Assembly (NCBI RefSeq): GCF_003966695.1
Contig: NZ_AP018828.1
Location: 526,001-590,000 of the forward strand
DNA from: Asticcacaulis excentricus
GTDB lineage: Bacteria; Pseudomonadota; Alphaproteobacteria; Caulobacterales; Caulobacteraceae
Direction of reading: 5' to 3'
DNA length: 64,000 nucleotides
In this document: piece by piece, positions 1,701-34,088 of the stretch
Position numbering within the stretch: the first letter of the stretch is position 1
Layout of the letters: each line of letters begins with the position of its first letter
The notes under the pieces: generated by a model
What the model saw: the letters and a program-made list of their open reading frames with translations, nothing else
Database searches by the model: none
Told to the model about the DNA's origin: nothing
Position numbers and translations under genes: made by a program

Positions 1701-4097
1701 TTACCAGTTGTGCGTTACGCGCGCATACAGATAGCGGCCATTGAAGCCGAAGGGCGAGAAGCGCGAGAAGGCCAGCGCGCCCTGTGACCCTTGCAGCGAA
1801 GCGATCGTCTTGTCCGGATAGACGTCGAAGACATTGTCCGCGCCGAAGGTGACCGAGGTCTTGTCCGTCAGCTTGTAGCTGGCCGACAGGTCGAGCAGGG
1901 TCTTTTCGCCGGTGTGGATATCGCTGGGGAAGTTCGCCGCCGCGTCGATCACGTCGCCATAATACGTGGCGCGACCGTTGACGCTCCACTTGCCGCCCTT
2001 CCAATCCACCGTAGTGCTGCCCTTGTTCTCAGGCGTCGAGTTGGTGAGGATATACTGACGGATGCGGGCGAACAGCGCCGGCGGGTTTTGCAGGCTCGAC
2101 ACCGTGTTGGCACCCGGCAGGCGGGTGATTTCGGTATTGCCGCTGTTCCAGGCGAGGTTGAAGTTGAAGCGGCCGTAATGGTCGGTCGGCAGACGATAAT
2201 TGGCTACCAGATCAATACCGGTCGTTTCGCTATCCACGCCATTGGTGAAAAAGCGGGCGGCCGTCACGCCATAGGGCTTCAGCAGGGCGGTGATTTCCGA
2301 CGTGCCCGACAGGTTTTCCGTCAGGACGATGCGGTTATCAATATTGATGCGGTAGGCATCCAGCGTCAGCTCAAACGGGCCCTTGCGATAGACGAAGCCG
2401 GCCGCATAGTTGGTGGACTCTTCGGCCTCCAGCGCCGGGGCGCCGAGCGCTCTGGCCACCGCAGACGAGGCCGGGAAGGTGCCGGTTTCAACCACGACAC
2501 CGCCCGACACGACCGAAGCCGTCGAGGTGAAGTACTGCTGTTGCAGGGACGGCGCACGGAAGCCCGTGGACACCGAACCGCGCAGGGCCAGATTGTCGGT
2601 CAGTTCGTAACGCAGCGACAGCTTGCCCGACAGGTTGTCACCAAAGTCCGAGTATTTTTCCGCGCGGGCGGCAAAGTCGAAGCTCAGTTGCGGCACGACC
2701 GTGGCGCTCAGTTCGGCATAGAGGCCGAAATTGTCGCGGTTGACATCGACCGCATTTGACGGCTGGAAGCCGATAAAGCCCTGCGCCCCGGCGGTGGCCG
2801 ACGTGATGGGGCCCAGCGCCCAGGACTGTTGCTCGCCGGCCTTGATCTGATAGTTTTCGTGGCGGCCTTCGACGCCCAGCGCGAAGGTCAGGGGGCTGTA
2901 GAAGCCAATCGGGAACTCACGGCTGATGTCGGCATTGAGCACCAGTTGGTCATAGATCACTTCGCCGTCATAGAAGCTGGTCTTGGAGGCCGTGCCGTAG
3001 GAGGCATTGACCGAATTGAGCGTGTTGTATTCCAGCTCGTTGCGGCCCCAGTTGACCGAATAGTCGGACGTCCAGTCGCCCCACTGCCCGCGGGTGCCAA
3101 AGGTCGCCGAATAGTTCTTCGACTTGACATTGATCAGCGGCAGGAAGCCGTTGGGATAGATGGCTGCGACATTACCGCTGTTGCCCGGTTGGCGGAAGAA
3201 GGCCGCGCTTTCGGACTCAAGGCTCTGTACGCCGCCGAAGCCATACAGCTTCCAGCCGTTCTCCAACGGCTTGGCGGCATTGGCAAACAGGGCGACGCTT
3301 TCCTGCTCCGGATCGCCATAACGGCCGGTCACGCGGTTGGGTGTGACGCGCGGATCGGTGTCGGCGCGGTTGGTCGCTTCGCGGTTACGGTACTCACCCG
3401 ATACGGTCAGGAAGCCGTCTTCGCCGAGCGGCAGGCCGACCCAGCCAGCGACATTATAGGTGCGGCCGTCGTTTTCCTTGCGCGATGAGCGGTCAGCTTT
3501 GACCTCGGTATTGTACTGGCCATAGCTGGCCGAGACGCTGCCGCCCGAACGGGCTTCGCGCAGACGCAGGTTGACGACGCCGGCAATGGCGTCCGACCCG
3601 TATTGCGCCGAAGCCCCGTCGCGCAGGATTTCGACCGTGCTGAGCGCCGAAGTCGGGATGGCGTTGAGGTCGGCTGGTGCCGAGCCGCGACCGGCGGAGC
3701 CATTGGTGTTGACCTGCGCCGAGGTGTGGCGACGCTTGCCGTTCAGCAGGACCAGAGTCTGGTCCGGGCTGAGGCCACGCAGAGAGGCCGGGCGCACGCT
3801 GTCGGTGCCATCCACGGCGGACGGGCGCGGGAAGGTGAGGGATGGGGCGACGCGCGACAGGGTCTGCGCCAGTTCAGTCGAGCCCAGCGCATCCAGCGCG
3901 TCCTTACGGATCACATCGACGGGGGCAAGGGTATCGAGGCGCGAGCGCGGCTGGGTGCGGCTGCCGGTGACGACCACTTCGGTGACGTCGTTGTCAGCGG
4001 TGGCTTCCTGCGCGAAGGCAGGCAGGGAAAGCAAGCTGAGGGCCGTCGTCGCAGTGAGTGCGGCGGCCAGTGTGCGATGGGAGGCACGGATGGACAT
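1701..4097 (-). CDS. TonB-dependent outer-membrane receptor
   Basis: 798 aa. A signal peptide ends at AFAQ, followed by a TonB-box-like stretch (TEVVVTG) and a plug domain with SLRGLSPDQTLVLLNGKRR and VEILRDGASAQYGSDAIAGVVN. A long beta-barrel ends in HNW; an aromatic last residue is usual for barrel insertion. It would import a ligand across the outer membrane using TonB energy. Nothing nearby identifies the ligand. The start at 4097 is chosen over an upstream ATG at 4121 because AGGAG lies 8 nt before it and the signal peptide then begins correctly. Family certain, substrate unknown. Confidence 0.92.
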   Translation of the reverse strand: MSIRASHRTLAAALTATTALSLLSLPAFAQEATADNDVTEVVVTGSRTQPRSRLDTLAPVDVIRKDALDALGSTELAQTLSRVAPSLTFPRPSAVDGTDSVRPASLRGLSPDQTLVLLNGKRRHTSAQVNTNGSAGRGSAPADLNAIPTSALSTVEILRDGASAQYGSDAIAGVVNLRLREARSGGSVSASYGQYNTEVKADRSSRKENDGRTYNVAGWVGLPLGEDGFLTVSGEYRNREATNRADTDPRVTPNRVTGRYGDPEQESVALFANAAKPLENGWKLYGFGGVQSLESESAAFFRQPGNSGNVAAIYPNGFLPLINVKSKNYSATFGTRGQWGDWTSDYSVNWGRNELEYNTLNSVNASYGTASKTSFYDGEVIYDQLVLNADISREFPIGFYSPLTFALGVEGRHENYQIKAGEQQSWALGPITSATAGAQGFIGFQPSNAVDVNRDNFGLYAELSATVVPQLSFDFAARAEKYSDFGDNLSGKLSLRYELTDNLALRGSVSTGFRAPSLQQQYFTSTASVVSGGVVVETGTFPASSAVARALGAPALEAEESTNYAAGFVYRKGPFELTLDAYRINIDNRIVLTENLSGTSEITALLKPYGVTAARFFTNGVDSETTGIDLVANYRLPTDHYGRFNFNLAWNSGNTEITRLPGANTVSSLQNPPALFARIRQYILTNSTPENKGSTTVDWKGGKWSVNGRATYYGDVIDAAANFPSDIHTGEKTLLDLSASYKLTDKTSVTFGADNVFDVYPDKTIASLQGSQGALAFSRFSPFGFNGRYLYARVTHNW

Positions 4098-4502: not shown

Positions 4503-4634
4503 GCTGGCTCTCCTTTAGACATATCGGTTCGCTTTGGCTAGGGGGCGTGGTGCAATTGCTATCTGTGGGCGGAAAAAGCTGTGGCTAATCGCCCATCAGC
4601 GCCTTATCACGGCTTAAGACAAAAGGAGGCGGGC

Positions 4635-5171
4635 ATGACGGTCTATGTGGCGCTGCTGCGCGGGGTGAATGTCGGTGGCAATAACAAACTGCCGATGAAA
4701 GATTGGCGCGAAAGCCTTGCGGCACTGGGTCTCTGCAATCCCCGTACCTATATCCAGAGCGGCAATGCCGTCTTTGAAAGCGACAGGGCCGCCGAAAGCC
4801 TGCCCGACCTGATTACCGCCGACATAGGGGCGCGGTTTGGGTTTACGTCCGTTTGCCACGTGCTGAGCCTGGAGCAGGTCCGCGCCGCGCGTCAGGCCTG
4901 CCTCTACGTGCCGGAGGGAGAGGATGGCCACAAACAGGTGCATCTGATGTTCATCAAGGGCGGGATAAAGACCTATGACCCTGACGGACTCGCGGCGCTG
5001 GCTACACAGGGCGAGCGGTTCCACATGGGGGAGGGGGTCTTTTATCTGTACACGCCGCAAGGCTTTGGCAAGTCTGTGGTGGCCGAAAAGCTGCCGCGCT
5101 TCCTCAAGGCGGAACTGACGGCGCGCAATCTGAGGACCGTCGATGCGTTGATCGAACTGGCGCACGGCTGA
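4635..5171 (+). CDS. DUF1697 domain protein
   Basis: 178 aa. The N-terminus MTVYVALLRGVNVGGNNKLP and the following YIQSGNAVFES match the DUF1697 family, small cytosolic proteins of unknown biochemical function. An in-frame upstream ATG at 4581 is possible, but the start at 4635 has AGGAGG 5 nt upstream and coincides with the conserved family N-terminus. Its stop codon abuts the stop of the converging metallo-hydrolase gene with no spacer. Family assignment is firm, function unknown. Confidence 0.85.
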   Translation: MTVYVALLRGVNVGGNNKLPMKDWRESLAALGLCNPRTYIQSGNAVFESDRAAESLPDLITADIGARFGFTSVCHVLSLEQVRAARQACLYVPEGEDGHKQVHLMFIKGGIKTYDPDGLAALATQGERFHMGEGVFYLYTPQGFGKSVVAEKLPRFLKAELTARNLRTVDALIELAHG

Positions 5172-23954: not shown

Positions 23955-24224
23955 TCAGGAACGACGATAATTCTCGTCGATGTCCTGCGAATTGAGTCGC
24001 TCCTCAGAGCCGTCAATAAAGATGTGGTATTCGACGGCTCCCGCTGTGTTCACCTCGCCCTGTTCGATGCGATTGATCACTGCCGGGCCACCGTAGCGCG
24101 CCACAAGCTCCGGGTCGCGGATCAGGTGATTGACGGTCGGCATGGCGGCAAAATCAAAATCGTCCGAGGCGAACACCTCTTCACCGGTATTGTTGTCAAA
24201 AAAGCGGTAGGCCAGTCCGGGCAT
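23955..24224 (-). CDS. Small acidic hypothetical protein
   Basis: 89 aa, starts MPGLAYRFFDNNTGEEVFAS and has GGGAGATAG before the ATG. It is acidic and soluble, with alternating beta-like segments (AVEYHIFIDGSEE). I do not recognise a family. Coding is supported by the ribosome-binding site, codon pattern and absence of a competing gene. It lies between cytochrome c and threonine aldolase, all on the minus strand but with gaps of more than 120 bp, so an operon is not evident. Confidence 0.6.
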   Translation of the reverse strand: MPGLAYRFFDNNTGEEVFASDDFDFAAMPTVNHLIRDPELVARYGGPAVINRIEQGEVNTAGAVEYHIFIDGSEERLNSQDIDENYRRS

Positions 24225-24347
24225 GATCTATCTCCCATCTTGTGGTTGAGGGGGCAGGGTGCGCCCGGCCCGGTAAATAATCAATGCGCGCAATGCCGCA
24301 GGTGGTTTTGACAAAAGCGCAAGTGAAGTCTCAGAAAGTGCACCGGA

Positions 24348-25412
24348 CTATCTGTTTTCAGACGCGTTCTGAATATCGGCGGCCAGTTGATCCACTCGCG
24401 CCGGGTCGGCGTCCCAGGCGAACATGAAGCGCGCCCCGCCACCGATAAAGGTATAGAAGCGCCAGCCTTTGGCGCGCAGGGCGTCCAGAACAGATTCCGG
24501 CGCCTTGAGGAAGACGGCATTGGCCTGCACGGCAAACATGGGTTCTATTTCCGGCAAACCAGAAATTTTCTCGGCCAGTCGGCGGGCGCAGGCATTGGCG
24601 TGCTGACCGTTCCGCAGCCACGCCCCGTCCTTGATCATGCCCAGCCACGGCGCGGCCAGAAAGCGCATCTTGGAGGCCAGTTGCCCGGCCTGTTTGCAGC
24701 GATAGTCGAAATCCTGCGCCAGACCGCGATCAAAAAATAGAATAGCCTCGCCGACGCCCATGCCGTTCTTGGTGCCGCCGAAGCACAACACATCGACCCC
24801 GGCCTTCCACGTTATGTCCGCCGGGCTACAGTTGAGCGCCGCGCAGGCATTGGCAAAGCGCGCGCCGTCCATATGCAGACGCAGACCCAGTTCGCGGCAG
24901 ACGGCGGCAATGGCCTTCACTTCGTCGATGGCATAGACGAGGCCGGTTTCGGTGGGTTGGGTGATGGTGACGGCGCGCGGCTTGGGGAAGTGGATGTCGG
25001 AGCGGCTGGTGGCCAGCGCGCGGATGGCCTCCGGCGTCAACTTGCCGTCGGTCGAGGCGGCCACCAGCAGTTTGGAACCATTGGAGAAGAATTCCGGTGC
25101 GCCGCATTCGTCGGTTTCGACGTGGGCCGAGGCGGAGCAGATGACGCTGTGATAGGACTGACACAGAGACGCCAGGGCCAGCGAATTGGCCGCCGTGCCG
25201 TTGAAGGCGAAGAAGACCTCGGCCTCATGCTCGAACAGGTCGCGCAGGGCGTCCGCGGCGCGCTGTGTCCACGGGTCGTCGCCATAGGCGGGAACTGAGC
25301 CAGCATTGGCCTCATGCATGGCGTTCCACGCTTCGGGGCAGATGCCGGCATAGTTGTCGCTGGCGAATTGCTGCGGCGCTAAGGTCGTGAGGGGCAGGGC
25401 GGTGTCCGGCAT
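24348..25412 (-). CDS. ltaE: Low-specificity L-threonine aldolase
   Basis: 354 aa, PLP fold type I. Landmarks are FASDNYAGICPEAW at the N-terminus, HVETDECGAPEFF, LHMDGARFANA (the Asp that binds the pyridine nitrogen) and Lys215 in CFGGTKNGMG, the Schiff-base lysine. It splits L-threonine or allo-threonine to glycine and acetaldehyde. Divergent from lon, with about 400 bp between. The symbol is given by family; stereospecificity cannot be read from sequence. Confidence 0.88.
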   Translation of the reverse strand: MPDTALPLTTLAPQQFASDNYAGICPEAWNAMHEANAGSVPAYGDDPWTQRAADALRDLFEHEAEVFFAFNGTAANSLALASLCQSYHSVICSASAHVETDECGAPEFFSNGSKLLVAASTDGKLTPEAIRALATSRSDIHFPKPRAVTITQPTETGLVYAIDEVKAIAAVCRELGLRLHMDGARFANACAALNCSPADITWKAGVDVLCFGGTKNGMGVGEAILFFDRGLAQDFDYRCKQAGQLASKMRFLAAPWLGMIKDGAWLRNGQHANACARRLAEKISGLPEIEPMFAVQANAVFLKAPESVLDALRAKGWRFYTFIGGGARFMFAWDADPARVDQLAADIQNASENR

Positions 25413-25636
25413 GGGGCGTCTCTCAGATAGAATGAGTTTTGCGACGCATGAGCCTTGGTCCCGTTGGTTGCCGGTTCGGCCGCATCTCCGTTTCCGGACG
25501 CCACCTTGCCGGGAAGGGCAGGTTGGCGTTAAGCGCGTCGCTTAACTCTGGATGCCCTTTCGCCTTAGCCGTTCATAAGCACTTGCGCAAGCGAAAGTTT
25601 CTGCGGAAACCGGTAGAGTCGCCTGATCCGGCCTCC

Positions 25637-25665
25637 CTTGAATATGGGTGGGAAAGTCCCACATT
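25637..25665 (+). promoter_or_regulatory. Possible sigma-32 heat-shock promoter of lon
   Basis: CTTGAA (25637-25642), 15 nt, then CCCACATT (25658-25665) resembles the heat-shock consensus. It would give a leader of about 150 nt before lon. Lon is heat inducible in many Proteobacteria, including Caulobacter. The rest of the 407-bp ltaE-lon gap shows nothing else I can name. Confidence 0.45.
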
Positions 25666-25819
25666 CAGCCTAGGTTCAGCCGAGGAATCGTCTAAGGTGA
25701 ATGGTGAACCCCTGCGCAGACATTGCGCGTATATATCCGGAGAACGCGCCCTTTATCTTTACGCGGGGTGGTCGTTGGACGCCCTTGTCGAGGCGCGCTG
25801 TCCGGCTCAGGAGTAAGTA

Positions 25820-28213
<2,394 letters not shown>

Positions 28214-28264
28214 GCCGTAAGGGATAGCGCTATTTTGGCGTGCACTCGCCAAAACGGTTGAAAA

Positions 28265-28316
28265 TAAAGAGCGGAATTTGTTGGCTAAGCGCCTCAAATT
28301 TCGCTCTTTTTTGTGT
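28265..28316 (+). terminator. Terminator of lon
   Basis: AAAGAGCGGAATTT pairs with AAATTTCGCTCTTT with one mismatch, followed by a T run. Confidence 0.85.
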
Positions 28317-28477
28317 AAGTCCTTAAAAAAACTCGGTTTGCAGTGCAAAAAATGCGATTTCGCTTTTGACGAGCGGGGGTTTTTGTAGTCTCTATCGGGT
28401 CCACCCGCCGACGACTCGCTGAGTCCGACAGGGAACGGTTCACACAAATGCCCGTCATGGCGGGCAGGGAGAAACTT

Positions 28478-28756
28478 ATGACGACCAAAGCTGAACTCGT
28501 GGCCGCCATTGCCGATCAGGCGGGCCTGACCAAGGAACAAGCCAAGAAGGCCGTTGACGCCTTCACCGATTCCGTCGTGGACGCCCTGAAAAAGGGTGAA
28601 GAAGTCCGCCTCGTCGGCTTCGGCACCTTCCTCGCTGTGAAGCGCGAAGCCGGCACCGCCCGCAACCCGCGTACCGGCGAAACCGTTTCGCGTCCGGCTT
28701 CGGTCACCGCGCGCTTCCGCGTCGGCGAAGGCCTGAAGAACGCCCTGAACGGCTAA
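28478..28756 (+). CDS. hup: DNA-binding protein HU
   Basis: 92 aa from the ATG at 28478, with GGGAGAAA upstream. The sequence begins MTTKAELVAAIADQAGLT and contains the HU signature GFGTFLAVKREAGTARNPRT, whose Pro-tipped beta arms wrap into the DNA minor groove. It is a nucleoid-associated dimer that bends and compacts DNA. It lies downstream of lon with its own leader, and a terminator hairpin follows. Confidence 0.97.
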   Translation: MTTKAELVAAIADQAGLTKEQAKKAVDAFTDSVVDALKKGEEVRLVGFGTFLAVKREAGTARNPRTGETVSRPASVTARFRVGEGLKNALNG

Positions 28757-28796
28757 TATCACTCACAGAATTTAAGCCGAAACGGCTTGACTTCGG

Positions 28797-28834
28797 GACC
28801 GGAGGTTGGCATTGACCGGCCTCCGGTTTTTTAT
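28797..28834 (+). terminator. Terminator of hup
   Basis: ACCGGAGG pairs with CCTCCGGT, followed by TTTTTT. It lies only about 20 bp before tRNA-Val. Confidence 0.88.
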
Positions 28835-28852
28835 GTCCGGTCCCCTGTGGAG

Positions 28853-28928
28853 GGGCGATTAGCTCAGCTGGCAGAGCGGCTCGTTTACACCGAGTAGGTC
28901 GGCGGTTCGATCCCGTCATCGCCCACCA
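28853..28928 (+). tRNA. tRNA-Val (anticodon TAC)
   Basis: 76 nt, acceptor GGGCGAT/ATCGCCC, D-arm AGCTCAGCTGGCAGAGC, anticodon loop TTTACAC with TAC, T-arm GGTTCGATCC, encoded CCA. With hup's terminator so close upstream, it needs either a promoter within the hup tail or read-through. Its 3' half is repeated downstream. Confidence 0.96.
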
Positions 28929-29170
28929 TTTACCTCGACAGTTTGCGAACCGCCGCATTTTTGTTTGTTTGCTTGCGCAAACGGGGGTTCGATCCCGTCA
29001 TCGCCCACCATTTCTCTCGACAGTTTGCGAACCGCCGCATTTTTGTTTGTTTGCTTGCGCAAACGCGGCTTCGATCCTGCCATCGCTCACCATTTCTCTC
29101 GACAGTTTGCGAACCGCTGAATCTTTGTTGGTTGGTGTAACCGTGGGAGCGATCCCGTCATCGCTCACCC
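28906..29170 (+). repeat. Tandem repeats of the tRNA-Val 3' half plus spacer (82-bp unit)
   Basis: The tRNA 3' end from TTCGATCCCGTCATCGCCCA through CCA and the following ~60 bp recurs. Units start at 28906 (inside the tRNA), 28988 and 29070, with a decayed fourth at 29148. The first two 82-bp units differ at about four positions; the third is 78 bp and more diverged. Each of the first two contains GTTTGCG...CGCAAAC, a possible stem. No unit after the first has the tRNA 5' half, so none is a functional tRNA. Confidence 0.93.
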
Positions 29171-29253
29171 TTTGTCCCACACATCGTACCGTTTTTGCGC
29201 GTCCAAAGCGGCAATGAAAAACCGGCCTGAGTGCTCCCAGACCGGTCTGAATT

Positions 29254-29499
29254 TTAGTTCGTCGCCTTTTCGGCGTTACGTTTGATGTTTTCGGCGGGTG
29301 GCTGATCACCCAGTTCATCAGCGGCCTTGTCCACGCCCTGCGGCAGAGCCTCTACGGCATCACCCATGCGCTCGGAACCGCTACGGTTGTCCTGCATCAG
29401 AAACACGGCACCGACCGCCAGAAGGGCGATCACGGCCACGCCAATCAGGATGAGAATGCTGTTTGTGCCCTTACCGGGGGCCGTTGTTGTGCTCGCCAT
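29254..29499 (-). CDS. Small single-pass membrane protein
   Basis: 81 aa from the ATG at 29499, with AGGAG 8 nt upstream. After about 14 polar residues there is one transmembrane helix (ILILIGVAVIALLAVGAVFL), then a charged tail (GDAVEALPQGVDKAADELGD). I do not recognise the family. The amphipathic tail could associate with the membrane surface or pair as a coiled coil. It lies downstream of and antiparallel to the tRNA-Val array. No function proposed. Confidence 0.65.
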   Translation of the reverse strand: MASTTTAPGKGTNSILILIGVAVIALLAVGAVFLMQDNRSGSERMGDAVEALPQGVDKAADELGDQPPAENIKRNAEKATN

Positions 29500-29590
29500 G
29501 GGAAGGCTCCTCTGTCTCTTCGATGGACTGAGGATAGGCGCAAGCGTGAAAGCGCTCAGCACGGATAACAGCGGTGGCGAGTAGGAGGCG

Positions 29591-29625
29591 CATAAAAAAC
29601 CGCCGGGGTTACCGGCGGTTTTTGC
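29591..29625 (-). terminator. Terminator of the autotransporter gene
   Basis: AAAACCGCCGG pairs with CCGGCGGTTTT around a 5-nt loop, followed on the minus strand by a short T run. Confidence 0.88.
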
Positions 29626-29643
29626 GGTCCGATCTGAATGCGA

Positions 29644-32600
29644 TTAGAACTGGAAGCGGGCGCGTAGTGACAGCGAGACGTTGTTGTAGGCGTCGTACTT
29701 TTCATATTCGGCTTCGATACCGAAATAGCTGTATTCGTTGGAGGCCGCAAGGCGCACACCCGCAATCGGGGCGCCGCCCTTGATGTCGCCGCCTTTGAGC
29801 GTGAACGGGGTGGCGGTGCCAAAACGCGCCACCGTATCGGCGATTTCCGCCGAGAAGTTGTTACGGTAACCGACCCAGATTTCCGGACGGAAGAGGGCGT
29901 TCTTGTTGGAGCGGCCGATATTCAGCAAGGCGGTGCCGCTGAAGATATGGCCTGTACGCTCATCCACCGACAGGTCGAACGCCGTGCCGCCGCCGGTTTC
30001 GGTATGGGCGTCTTCCTTCAGGCCGAAATAGTCGGCACTAACCATGGGGGTCAGGCTCAGCCAGCCGGCATCGACGCTGTAGGAGGCCCCGATGCTGCCC
30101 GAATAGCTGACGCCCTTCCACTTGGCGGTCGAGCTCGCGATGAAGGCGGATTCGAGGATCTGACGCTTCGATTCGAAGTTGGCGTAGCCCACGCCGCCGC
30201 GGACCCAGCTTTTCAGGCCCGAACCGTTATCCAGGCGCCAATAGGCCCCAAGAGACAGGTCGGTCGAGCTGAGGTCTTCGTCCGGCGCGCCCAACGTACC
30301 CTTGGGGTTGGTGGCGGTGTAGGCCAGATAAAGACCGGCGGCCTGAGTCGCGGTAATGCCGCGTTCGACCCCACCGGCAAAAGCAAAGCCGGTCGATTCG
30401 AAGCCCGTGACGTCTGTGCGGTCGCGATTGATCTGGAAGCCGTATTCCTGCGCCCAGTACTGGTTGACACCGGCCTGCGGGATGATCGATTGGCTGGCCA
30501 TGGTGCGCGACAGGCCGTCATTGCTTTTGGACAGGGTCAGCAGCGTTTCGCCGGAATAGTCGGGCAGGAACGACAGATAGGCCTTGTTGAAACCTTCCGC
30601 TGTGGTCGGATTGAGCAGGGCGCGCGTGGCACTGGTATTGCCCTGGGCGGCAGTCAAAACGGCATCGAAGGCCGCGAACTCATTGACCGACAGGGCGGTT
30701 TCGCTCTGTGTGCGCAGGCGTACATCGGCATAGAGCGCCGTATTGGCCGTATTGGTCGAAAGGGCGGCCTTGTACAGATAGGGGATATTGCTGTCGAGGC
30801 TGGCCTTATCAAGCGTGCCGAGCGTTATGCTCGAAGCGGTAAGAAGCGTGTAGCGCGTCGCCGGCTTGACGATGCTGGACATGCCGATCTGCACCTTGGC
30901 CCCTGTTGCGAACACGGCGGCCCCGGAGGCGGCGATAAGGGGGGTGTTGGGATTGGCCGTATCCGGCACAAAGCGTAGCGTGCCGTCCGCACTTACATTT
31001 ACTGTTGTGGCGTTGAGCTTTGAGCCGGTATCGAGATTGAGTGCGCCCTTCACGATGTCGATGGACACCGTACCGGAACCCGTCATCTTGCCGCCAACAA
31101 TGCCGTTGGTGGTGATGCTCAGACTGTTGCTGCCTGCGCCGAAGTCGATATTGCCGATGACAAAGCCACCGTCGATCTTCACCACGTCATTGCCCGAGCC
31201 CAGACGGATATCGCCTGAGATAACGGGGGCGGCGACCGTATTGTCATCCGGTTTGAGGTCGGTCTGGACAAGGGTGACGCCGGCTGTATTGCCGCTCAGG
31301 TCGATGGCCACAGCCCGGTTGTTGGTCGGGTCAACCACGCCGTTAGCGTCATCGTCGGTTTGGGTGATCGAGGCCGTGATGTTGCCGGTATTGTTCAGGC
31401 GCACCAGCGTGTTTGAGCCATCAAAAATCGCTGTCGCGTTCGACTTTGAGCCCGTCGAAGTCGCGCTGATCGTGCCGCTGACATTGACTTCGGGTACCTT
31501 AGCCCCTGAGCCGATATAGAGGGCGTAGGCGGTTTCGTTCTTGGTGGAGCTGTTGGCGGCGCGTAGGTTGCCGCCGACATTAAAGGCATTGGCGACCGTA
31601 CCGGCCAGAAGATTGGCAGCCCGCGCTTCGGCCAGGTAGGAAGAGGCCGAAACGGTGCCATTGATCAGGATGCCGTTTTCAAAGGTGACCGTGCGACCCA
31701 TGCCGCCCGTTTCGATGGCCTTGGCGACCACGCCTTCGAATACGCCGGAAGAGGCGATGCTGCCGCGCACGACCAGGCCGAACTTCTGGTTCTTGTAGGT
31801 ATCGGTCGCGGTCGTTGCGATGTTGATGGCGTTGATAGTAATGTCCTGCGTGGCCGAACCGACCTTCAGGGCCGCCGCACCGCCATATTGCGACAGGCTG
31901 GCGGCACCATCGGCCGTGTCAGTGACGCCGTTGCCGTCTTCGTCATTATTACGTTCGGCTTCCGCCTTGGCCGCGTCCGTATCCGCAATGGTGGACTGAA
32001 TCAGTATGCCCTTGGTGACATTGCCGGCGATATTAACCAGTGGTCCCGCCTGCAGCTTGTCTTCGACCTGAAGCTTGTCCAGTGTCGCCTTGTCGGGAAC
32101 TGTAGTCAGGCGGTAGCCGGTGCCTGCGACCGTGCCGTCCAGGATCAACGCGCCGGTGAGGTTGCTGGCGAGATTGAGCGCCGTGGCGTTCAGCCCCTGA
32201 GCCGTGGTGGAACCGCCGATGACGATATTGCCCGTGACGCCGCCCTCAAACGAATAGGCCCGCACATTATCACCTACAACGGTCACCGTGCTGTCGGAGT
32301 TAAAATTACCCGTCAGGGCGTTTTCAAAGCGGACACCGTAGGAATTGTTGCCTTCGACCTGAATGGCGCTGGCCGAAGCGAGGCTGACATCGCCAATGAA
32401 GGGCGTTGTGCCGACCGACCGAATGCCGTAGCGCCGCTCACCTTTGGCAAAGACCCCATCGGCAATGCCATCGGTCGGAGAATCCGTATCCGTGGGGGTG
32501 TAATCGTCGGTGACCGTGATCTTGCCGGAGAGGGTCAGGCCACTGGTGCGGCCGCCGTCAATATAGATGCCCGTGGCGTCGTCGCCCGAAGACGACATGT

Positions 32601-32850
32601 CGATCGCACCGACCACATTCACCTTGTTGTTCGAATCGATTGTGATTGCGCGCGCGCCTGCGCCCTTGAGCGTAATCGTGCCGCCTGTATCCAGCTTGAT
32701 ATCATCCGCAGCGCCCGCCGTGGTCGCCGTTGAGGTTTTAACAGGGGCGGTCGTCGAAGTGTTTATAACGACTTCGGCCTGCGCCACACCTGCGGTAACC
32801 GCGATGACCAGACCAAGGGCGGTAGCATTGAAGAGATGAGATTTGCGCAT
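29644..32850 (-). CDS. Autotransporter (type Va secretion) outer-membrane protein
   Basis: 1068 aa. A signal peptide ends at AQA (about residue 26). The passenger of about 750 residues is Gly/Asn/Thr/Val-rich and repetitive, as expected for a beta-helix. The C-terminal 280 residues or so form the autotransporter beta-barrel, ending in the classic aromatic residue (ARFQF). Two calcium-loop-like motifs D-x-D-x-N-G-x-x-D lie at 303-311 and 499-507. No protease motif recognised, so an adhesin or surface-layer role is more likely than an enzyme. Monocistronic, with a strong terminator. Confidence 0.88.
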   Translation of the reverse strand: MRKSHLFNATALGLVIAVTAGVAQAEVVINTSTTAPVKTSTATTAGAADDIKLDTGGTITLKGAGARAITIDSNNKVNVVGAIDMSSSGDDATGIYIDGGRTSGLTLSGKITVTDDYTPTDTDSPTDGIADGVFAKGERRYGIRSVGTTPFIGDVSLASASAIQVEGNNSYGVRFENALTGNFNSDSTVTVVGDNVRAYSFEGGVTGNIVIGGSTTAQGLNATALNLASNLTGALILDGTVAGTGYRLTTVPDKATLDKLQVEDKLQAGPLVNIAGNVTKGILIQSTIADTDAAKAEAERNNDEDGNGVTDTADGAASLSQYGGAAALKVGSATQDITINAINIATTATDTYKNQKFGLVVRGSIASSGVFEGVVAKAIETGGMGRTVTFENGILINGTVSASSYLAEARAANLLAGTVANAFNVGGNLRAANSSTKNETAYALYIGSGAKVPEVNVSGTISATSTGSKSNATAIFDGSNTLVRLNNTGNITASITQTDDDANGVVDPTNNRAVAIDLSGNTAGVTLVQTDLKPDDNTVAAPVISGDIRLGSGNDVVKIDGGFVIGNIDFGAGSNSLSITTNGIVGGKMTGSGTVSIDIVKGALNLDTGSKLNATTVNVSADGTLRFVPDTANPNTPLIAASGAAVFATGAKVQIGMSSIVKPATRYTLLTASSITLGTLDKASLDSNIPYLYKAALSTNTANTALYADVRLRTQSETALSVNEFAAFDAVLTAAQGNTSATRALLNPTTAEGFNKAYLSFLPDYSGETLLTLSKSNDGLSRTMASQSIIPQAGVNQYWAQEYGFQINRDRTDVTGFESTGFAFAGGVERGITATQAAGLYLAYTATNPKGTLGAPDEDLSSTDLSLGAYWRLDNGSGLKSWVRGGVGYANFESKRQILESAFIASSTAKWKGVSYSGSIGASYSVDAGWLSLTPMVSADYFGLKEDAHTETGGGTAFDLSVDERTGHIFSGTALLNIGRSNKNALFRPEIWVGYRNNFSAEIADTVARFGTATPFTLKGGDIKGGAPIAGVRLAASNEYSYFGIEAEYEKYDAYNNVSLSLRARFQF

Positions 32851-33176
32851 AGTCTCGCTTTCGCTCGTCGATTTGAATTCTCAGACAGAACAACGCGTCG
32901 CGTCATGCAATGGCGCGCCTGCCCCCAAGGAAACAATATACTGGCGGCGTTTTCCCGCCCTTATGTCAGCGGCGACTCTTCGGGACGAATATGGGCTATT
33001 CTATGTCATTGCAGACATGCGCAGGCCCGTATGTGTCGTTTGCGTCAACCCTGTTTCGTCACAGACATACACGCGAAGACACAGATTTGCCTAATGCAAA
33101 TTTTGCGCGAAGATGAATTTTCATGAAGGAAAAAGAAAGGATATGCGGGGCCACCTGAGAGAGTGTATTCTCCAGG
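32851..33176. other. Intergenic region upstream of the autotransporter
   Basis: About 325 bp with no recognisable gene. It presumably contains the autotransporter promoter on the minus strand. A hairpin (CCACCTG/CAGGTGG, about 33151-33179) sits at the tRNA-Asp 3' end and may terminate the tRNA transcript. Confidence 0.4.
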
Positions 33177-33253
33177 TGGCGCGAGTGACGGGGCTCGAAC
33201 CCGCGACCTTCGGCGTGACAGGCCGACACTCTAACCAACTGAGCTACACCCGC
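33177..33253 (-). tRNA. tRNA-Asp (anticodon GTC), copy 1
   Basis: 77 nt on the minus strand, acceptor GCGGGTG/CACTCGC, anticodon loop CTGTCAC with GTC, T-arm GGGTTCGAGCCC, encoded CCA. Identical to the copy at 33314-33390. Confidence 0.96.
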
Positions 33254-33313
33254 ATTCCTGTTCGGGCAACGACGTCTTTGGATGCGAAGGCCACCGGCTT
33301 GGGTTACAAGGGG

Positions 33314-33390
33314 TGGCGCGAGTGACGGGGCTCGAACCCGCGACCTTCGGCGTGACAGGCCGACACTCTAACCAACTGAGCTACACCCGC
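33314..33390 (-). tRNA. tRNA-Asp (anticodon GTC), copy 2
   Basis: Identical in all 77 positions to copy 1, 60 bp away on the same strand. The two are probably cotranscribed. Confidence 0.96.
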
Positions 33391-33710
33391 ATCCATATAT
33401 TGTCGTTCTCTGCGTCAGGACGTTAGCCCCGCCGAAGAGGTGCGCTAGATAGTGCGGGGCGGCCTGCGGTGTCAAGCGCCATATTGCGGAAAACCGTCAA
33501 AAAGCCATTTGGCTGTGGAAGACCGGGGAAGGCCTGAGAACGATTTTCAAGTGCAGAAAATTCGACGACATTTTTGGCATTTCCCCCGATTTTAGGCTTT
33601 TGAGTGTTTGAAGCGCGGCGCGAGGTGGTCTAATAGGCTCAGTTGAGTCTGTCCCACGAACCTTTTGCGGTGCACCATGGGTGGGGCAGAGCCAAAAGTG
33701 GGATCGTACA
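33391..33710. other. Intergenic region between tRNA-Asp and nuoA
   Basis: 320 bp that must hold the divergent promoters for the tRNA-Asp pair and the nuo operon. I see no gene and no box I can name with confidence. Confidence 0.4.
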
Positions 33711-34088
33711 ATGGAAGCCCTCCTTATAAAGTATCTGCCGATTGTGATTTTCTTCGGCATCGCCCTCGTCCTTGGGCTGGGGTTCATCATCGCGGCGCTG
33801 GTTCTGGCGCCCAAGGCCCCCGACACCGAAAAGCTTTCGGCTTACGAATGCGGCTTCAACGCCTTCGACAGCGCCCGTCAGAAGTTTGACGTGCGATTCT
33901 ATCTCGTCTCGATCCTCTTCATCATCTTCGACCTCGAAGTGGCCTTCCTCTTCCCGTGGGCGGTGTCGATGTTCGACCTACCGCAGGCGGGTATGCAGTT
34001 TGCCTTCTGGTCGATGATGGTCTTTCTGGGCGTCCTGACGGTCGGCTTTATTTATGAGTGGAACAAAGGAGCCCTGGAATGGGAGTAA
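33711..34088 (+). CDS. nuoA: NADH-quinone oxidoreductase subunit A
   Basis: 125 aa, three transmembrane helices. The conserved loop [20 protein letters not shown] lies between TM1 and TM2 and helps shape the quinone-channel entrance. The ATG at 33711 gives the normal family N-terminus. First gene of a fourteen-subunit complex I operon running to 49.2 kb; its stop overlaps the nuoB start by 10 nt. Confidence 0.96.

Follow-up and report, generated by a model that had tools for sequence, protein, structure and literature searches.

Behind the tRNA-Val(UAC) gene of Asticcacaulis excentricus lies a tandem array of 82-bp units, in which a short core stays constant and the variable parts copy whichever tRNA stands there. 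The array was studied within a window of 64,000 nt, the whole stretch of DNA analysed, to which the positions given here refer. From sequence comparison, we lean towards the view that the array represents a short class of tRNA-linked repeat (TLR), a small non-autonomous insertion element of Asticcacaulis that would have been multiplied by slippage. TLRs, described in 1978, stand directly behind a stable RNA gene and finish with a copy of its 3' end; except for the small RNAs of three rRNA operons, they have no known function (PMC8144298). On such repeats, the literature matches listed contained nothing beyond that paper and an editorial.

The tRNA-Val locus and the anatomy of its array

The tRNA-Val(UAC) gene, with its CCA encoded, occupies 28853..28928 on the forward strand (ARAGORN; RF00005, 64.5 bits). 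Tandem Repeats Finder reports a period of 82 at 28900-29133 with 92% matches and a score of 384, the top of 14 rows in the window. The original prediction of a period-82 repeat of the tRNA-Val 3' end, with two near-perfect units followed by decay, describes a real feature: at an offset of 82 bp, unit 1 agrees with unit 2 at 79/82 positions and unit 2 with unit 3 at 64/82, against a best value elsewhere in the window of 38/82 (mean 20.7, sd 4.7). Unit 4 is out of register at this offset (22/82), and a repeat search places the fourth occurrence of the 3' end at a spacing of 78 bp, with 77% identity over 53 nt. The spacer of unit 1 starts at the base right after the tRNA CCA, the immediate downstream position that characterizes a TLR, and the first copy is identical to the tRNA 3' end at 24/24 positions, where 18-19 bp or more are expected of a TLR. 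An Rfam scan of 28700-29500 returned nothing above the cut-off but the tRNA itself, leaving the array without a known RNA family.

Within each unit the order is a spacer, an inverted piece, a T-rich stretch, a hairpin of the form GTTTGC-NNNN-GCAAAC, GGGG and the 3' end of the own tRNA. The inverted piece, which we call rcT, is the reverse complement of the T-arm strand of that tRNA. At the Val locus it complements the 5' strand of the T-arm and the start of the T-loop (CGGCGGTTCG, 28900..28909, forward strand). All parts of the array are given on the forward strand. Unit 1 comprises a pyrimidine-rich spacer of about 17 bases (28929..28945), rcT 1 (CGAACCGCCG, 28946..28955, a 10/10 reverse complement of the T-arm strand), the T-rich stretch of the core (28956..28966), the 6-bp hairpin GTTTGC-TTGC-GCAAAC (28967..28982), which shows compensatory changes in relatives, the GGGG junction (28983..28986), conserved across the element and without a match to the tRNA T-stem, and the first 3'-end copy, GTTCGA..CCA (28987..29010, 24/24). 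Unit 2 repeats this arrangement with its spacer at 29011..29027, rcT 2 at 29028..29037 (CGAACCGCCG, 10/10), the hairpin GTTTGC-TTGC-GCAAAC at 29049..29064 and a decaying 3'-end copy at 29069..29092. Further on, rcT 3 carries one change (CGAACCGCTG, 29110..29119, 9/10), the hairpin position has decayed to GGTTGGTGTAACC (29130..29142) and the degenerate third copy (29149..29170), spaced at 78, is overlapped by a terminator-like hairpin at 29145-29168. The unit had originally been described as the 3' part of the tRNA plus a spacer; the repeat was correctly recognized, while the inverted T-arm strand and the 6-bp hairpin held in that spacer were overlooked. Past the array, one terminator scan places a terminator-like hairpin at 29221..29246 (+), which is absent from the 6 sites of a simpler scan and may also serve the convergent gene. 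On the opposite strand downstream of the array, 29644-32850 encodes a 1068-aa protein with an autotransporter beta-domain (PF03797, E 9.6e-25).

The hairpin can be followed across 14 element-bearing loci. It pairs at 6/6 positions in 12 of them and at 5/6 in genome G010, and it is not recognisable in the degenerate Thr locus of G014. Both sides of the stem have changed together in GTTCGC/GCGAAC (Phe locus of G014, T-A to C-G) and in GTTGGC/GCCAAC (Gly locus of G011, T-A to G-C). Behind the tRNA-Met of G011 (L036), the hairpin segment is tandemly duplicated within the unit.

Absence of the array from all relatives had been named as a sign of chance duplication or an assembly artefact. Alignment of the region downstream of the tRNA, as the original prediction proposed, instead finds the same arrangement at the orthologous locus in G001, G010 and G023 and, more distantly, in G011, with the 3' end in one or two copies. 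An assembly artefact as the source of the array is therefore unlikely, judging from these alignments.

Both flanks follow the local tRNA

The contiguous matches of rcT to the T-arm of its own tRNA sum to 122 over the 14 loci, a value that none of 100,000 random draws attained when T-arms were sampled from 38 tRNA kinds of the A. excentricus genome. At 11 of the 14 loci no other T-arm equals the own match; the exceptions are Phe in G017 (2/36 others), Thr in G007 (9/37) and Gly in G011 (1/36). Counted by position, rcT forms 134/140 Watson-Crick cells with the tRNA, plus 3 G-T, compared with 109/140 for rcT against the adjacent copy. When tRNAs were shuffled among loci, 134 was reached in 0/20,000 cases, and with only the nine distinct combinations the observed 84/90 was reached by 2/20,000 shuffles; these figures apply to related loci chosen with a GAACC anchor, which fixes half of the rcT positions and leaves about five informative. 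The match is imperfect at two Thr loci (G018 and G007), at Phe of G017 and at Gly.

The 3' copy likewise tracks the local tRNA. An instructive case is the tRNA-Phe of G014, which alone among 23 tRNA-Phe genes compared has a CGGTGG..CCGCCCCC variant of the T-stem and acceptor, and whose two rcT copies and 3' copy share these changes. In G011, the last 18 nt of the tRNA recur exactly at Phe, Gly and Met and with 3 mismatches at Val. A genome-wide count of tRNAs with an rcT of at least 10 nt gave 2/44 in A. excentricus (swapped mean 0.29, maximum 2) and 3/31 in G011 (swapped mean 0.69, maximum 3), so that some of the 200 tRNA swaps made per set equal the observed counts in both genomes. All five of these tRNAs also have a copy of their last 15 nt, with 0-3 mismatches.

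Gene conversion or selection might also have made the flanks change together. One alternative is that slippage or template switching made the direct and inverted copies in place, with recombination homogenizing them and neither an element nor a function being involved. Array copy number does vary and distal copies decay, as such ordinary duplication would have it, and quasi-palindrome correction combined with gene conversion could make both flanks follow the tRNA. Against this, the same hairpin core and GGGG occur at five tRNA kinds, which is not expected from duplication in place, and we regard the explanation as unlikely.

The favoured reading, an inserted element, would account for the units as follows. 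A core of ~30 bp, consisting of the T-rich stretch, the GTTTGC-loop-GCAAAC hairpin and GGGG, would have come to lie behind tRNA genes. To its left stands an inverted copy of the T-arm strand of the local tRNA and to its right a direct copy of the local tRNA 3' end, from T-loop to CCA, so that the tRNA stays intact. The direct repeats would then allow tandem units to be gained and lost, through slippage or through unequal recombination. That the core was inserted and did not originate in place is our inference; an enzyme may have participated, and the array might in addition act in some way as RNA.

Distribution within and beyond Asticcacaulis

Relatives of the 82-bp class were sought by a DNA search of 61 genomes, by a pattern for the hairpin and by a covariance model, R1, built from 12 units. 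The hairpin pattern matched 8/25 Asticcacaulis genomes and, at the level of the order, 2/299 genomes, both of them Asticcacaulis. With E < 1e-6, R1 matched 10/25 Asticcacaulis genomes, all ten of which had contributed units to the model, so that R1 added no genome; what it gained were the Gly locus in G011, a second unit each in G000 and G010 and, at E 0.09, a degenerate Thr locus in G014. All 15 matches of R1 in the genus with E < 1e-6 stand behind a tRNA. The host tRNAs of the core are Val (5 genomes), Met (1), Phe (3), Thr (4, one degenerate) and Gly (1).

A family search of 199 genomes under stricter filters gave 12 matching genomes at E <= 0.01, namely 11 Asticcacaulis and 1 among 174 others. 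This sole match outside the genus, in G727, is weak (E 0.009) and unconvincing, and ARAGORN finds no tRNA in its locus. As far as these sequence searches extend, the 82-bp class thus appears confined to Asticcacaulis. A phage or plasmid origin was considered and set aside: the hairpin pattern has no match in viral contigs, and blastn of 28929-28986 against phage and plasmid records returned nothing at E values up to 1. These searches thus gave no vehicle for the element.

Variation at orthologous loci

Copy number differs among tRNA-Val loci with the same flanks, G023 having a single unit, G001 and G010 two each, and A. excentricus two good units plus a decayed one. The gene hup precedes tRNA-Val in 25/25 genomes. 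The gene that follows tRNA-Val was found solely in the five element-bearing genomes, in a comparison of about 1.5 kb per locus (less in G019). The downstream flanks of Phe and Thr, taken from five reference loci, differ between most species. Behind tRNA-Phe, the region of G014 from about +460 is common to G003 (77% over 1,053 bp) and to G009. The element is present here in G014 and missing from G003, whose surroundings agree on both sides, so that it is gained or lost at an orthologous locus. An empty site with exact borders was not found at the Val, Phe or Thr loci compared, and at Phe G003 and G009 have diverged too far from G014 close to the tRNA for the junction to be placed. In G009, a AAACGGGGGT stretch within 100 nt downstream of tRNA-Phe (L208) could be a remnant of the core.

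Transcription and predicted RNA folding

The first terminator-like hairpin behind tRNA-Val in the window is the one inside the decayed third copy. Since units 1 and 2 precede both this hairpin and the one past the array, transcription beyond the tRNA is plausible, and we infer that these two units are likely part of the transcript. Among the other Val loci, those of G001, G010 and G023 have the array ahead of their first terminator-like hairpin, and G011 has none within 330 nt.

These positions are relevant to the main rival of the insertion reading, in which the array is the 3' trailer of the pre-tRNA and pairing of rcT with the T-arm, and of the copy with the 5' acceptor strand, adjusts maturation or leads to the release of small RNAs; the original prediction envisaged one or more of ~82 nt. 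We consider such an RNA function possible, although on the doubtful side. In its favour, three of the five Val loci have their first terminator-like hairpin beyond the array, the variable positions of rcT covary with the tRNA, and predicted pairing reaches at least 0.84 between rcT and T-arm in 7/14 loci (Met, three Phe, Thr of G021 and G014, and Gly) and at least 0.74 between the 5' acceptor strand and the copy in 14/14. Where both pairings form, an alternative cloverleaf with an extra arm is predicted. E. coli, moreover, has RNAs derived from TLRs: rttR is annotated there, and rrA/B/F are described in PMC8144298. On the other side, the predicted pairing of rcT with the T-arm is low at the Val loci, including that of the window (0.01-0.23), and at two Thr loci (0.17 in G018, 0.45 in G007). 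The array RNA folds no more stably than shuffled sequences (z -0.86 for the whole array, -1.15 for one unit), and the conserved GGGG, by reading, spoils the T-stem of the copy.

The elements also occupy the position of a terminator, which raises the alternative that the array is a terminator borrowing the tRNA, with the T-arm strand and rcT as its stem and the T-rich stretch as its tail. Among the 14 element loci, the only terminator-like hairpin starting within 80 nt of the CCA is the element's own, at two Thr loci, compared with 17/43 other tRNAs in A. excentricus and 8/27 in G011, the latter counted from 30/46 of its tRNA loci. The detector behind these counts is crude and missed an obvious hairpin after tRNA-Ser(GCT), so that the counts are low. 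The loop of such a terminator would measure about 36 nt with the end of the tRNA inside it, and the tail, by reading, is T-poor at Thr, Gly and several Phe units. A reading as a terminator only is weak on the scans of these loci, and we hold it to be very improbable.

Longer elements and similar loci elsewhere

Among the 44 tRNAs examined in the A. excentricus genome, longer TLR-like elements stand behind Ser(TGA) (L141), Ser(GCT) (L152), Arg(CCG) (L132) and Pro(CGG) (L134). Each comes after a long hairpin directly behind the CCA, their 3'-end copies are full or degenerate, and inverted T-arm pieces occur at both Ser loci and at Pro. At the two Ser loci, the end of the core, GAGCGCAGCG.AGCC|AATCC, resembles the GAGCGAAGCGAGTC|ATCC of E. 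coli. As with these four elements, the TLRs at lysV, lysQ and proK each follow a terminator-like hairpin. Such a position favours an origin of the pattern at the level of DNA and, as several of the longer elements bear rcT, against a device acting in RNA. The core motif of this long class was rejected as a family marker: 30/398 genomes of the phylum match, but in the 30 loci examined only 5 matches lie at a tRNA 3'-end copy of at least 0.8, two are partial (0.61 and 0.78) and for 23 no tRNA was found in that orientation. Genomes of the same taxonomic class repeatedly contain a motif GAGCGNAGCGAGGCAATCC, at loci where no tRNA was found (L251, L252, L255, L257-L259 and L263-L265).

In the wider collection the hairpin pattern has 17 matches, of which 8 are the Asticcacaulis arrays already counted. 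Three of the 9 others stand behind a tRNA and combine inverted T-arm pieces, the GTTTGC hairpin, which the search itself required, and a full or partial 3' copy: L070 (Bacteroidales, tRNA-Arg, 2551-2815), L078 (labelled Cyanobacteria, tRNA-Glu, 2990-3230) and L065 (unclassified, tRNA-His, 1240-1560). Another, L063, has tandem units at 4570-4838 in a contig without a tRNA, and five of the 9 lack a tRNA within 500 nt. Across three of these MAGs, 3/29 tRNAs examined (of 84 matches) have an rcT of at least 10 nt, where swapping gave a mean of 0.09 and a maximum of 1; one of the three positives is the locus that brought its genome in, and it alone has a 3' copy.

Comparison with known repeats and mobile elements

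The nearest known kind to the array are the TLRs of E. coli, which likewise stand behind a stable RNA gene, carry a 3'-end copy and form tandem arrays; their full-length Tyr, lysV/lysQ and proK members also contain the inverted T-arm of the host tRNA. The likeness to the tyrT/rtT locus that was originally proposed holds for this architecture, that is, the link to a tRNA, the 3'-end copy and the inverted T-arm of full-length E. coli units, whereas the repeat itself is a different one. The tyrT unit of ~178 bp releases an RNA of ~171 nt, compared with a unit of 82 bp here, and the E. coli core (GCAACG / GAGCGAAGCGAGTC) is absent, its place being taken by the T-rich stretch, the GTTTGC hairpin and GGGG. 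The copies also start differently, at the 5' edge of the T-loop (GTTCGA) here and at (A)ATCC in the E. coli TLRs. Taking the E. coli sequence family as defined by a GCAACG hairpin, GCCCGAAGGGC and GAGCGAAGCGAGTC before ATCC, its core-end pattern occurs in two places of the A. excentricus genome, both tRNA-Ser loci, and does not match the Val array.

Tyr, Arg, Lys and Pro tRNAs are followed by copies of their last 18 nt in the 13 E. coli regions compared. The longest exact inverted T-arm of the full-length repeats measures 13 nt at Lys, 10 at Tyr and 9 at Pro, and that of the shorter repeats (Arg and most Lys genes) 0-8 nt. An rcT of at least 10 nt occurs at 6/46 tRNAs of these regions, within the range of the swapped control (mean 3.74, maximum 7), probably because the regions hold many tRNAs of the same kinds.

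Direct repeats of a tRNA 3' end also arise at integrase attachment sites, which can lie in tRNA T-loops, as described for phage Ms6 (PMC1762012). The repeat from T-loop to CCA, which restores the tRNA, is common to both; the 82-bp unit and the lack of a recognised integrase gene or cargo set the present array apart. No integrase was recognised among the ORFs of 24000-34000 by reading, with two ORFs checked against Pfam. To our knowledge, an inverted T-arm strand is not part of integrase attachment sites. Elsewhere, a tyrosine-recombinase gene (PF00589, E 4.7e-7; L194, 1708-2880, reverse strand) follows a tRNA-Phe, and a copy of the 3' part of tRNA-Phe lies about 39 kb from these two (G000:C1:511213-511264); together, they are probably a genomic island.

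Elements of the IS200/IS605 type and REP/RAYT elements are small, with a subterminal hairpin and an internal sequence complementary to the target flank, and membership among them involves a Y1 transposase partner acting on the hairpin ends. Their complementarity extends over ~4 nt, compared with ~10 nt here, and the location behind tRNAs is a further difference. By extension, rcT might be a guide, an internal ~10 nt that selects the insertion site by pairing with the T-arm strand of one given tRNA, the hairpin and GGGG binding a recombinase, and guide and 3' end being rewritten at each new tRNA; we rate this as decidedly improbable.

Implications

The array resembles a poorly understood type of repeat known in E. 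coli, and a small inserted element was probably its starting point. It also carries a caution, in that copies of a tRNA 3' end are not always the scars of an integrase. If the guide interpretation were true, the same rule of inverted T-arm, hairpin and 3' copy would underlie the E. coli TLRs and the MAG loci of other groups. As a compact, lineage-specific class with a short constant core, both flanks of which track the host tRNA, these repeats offer a clean model for the origin of TLRs, and they let one ask whether base pairing with the tRNA takes part in the formation of the repeat.
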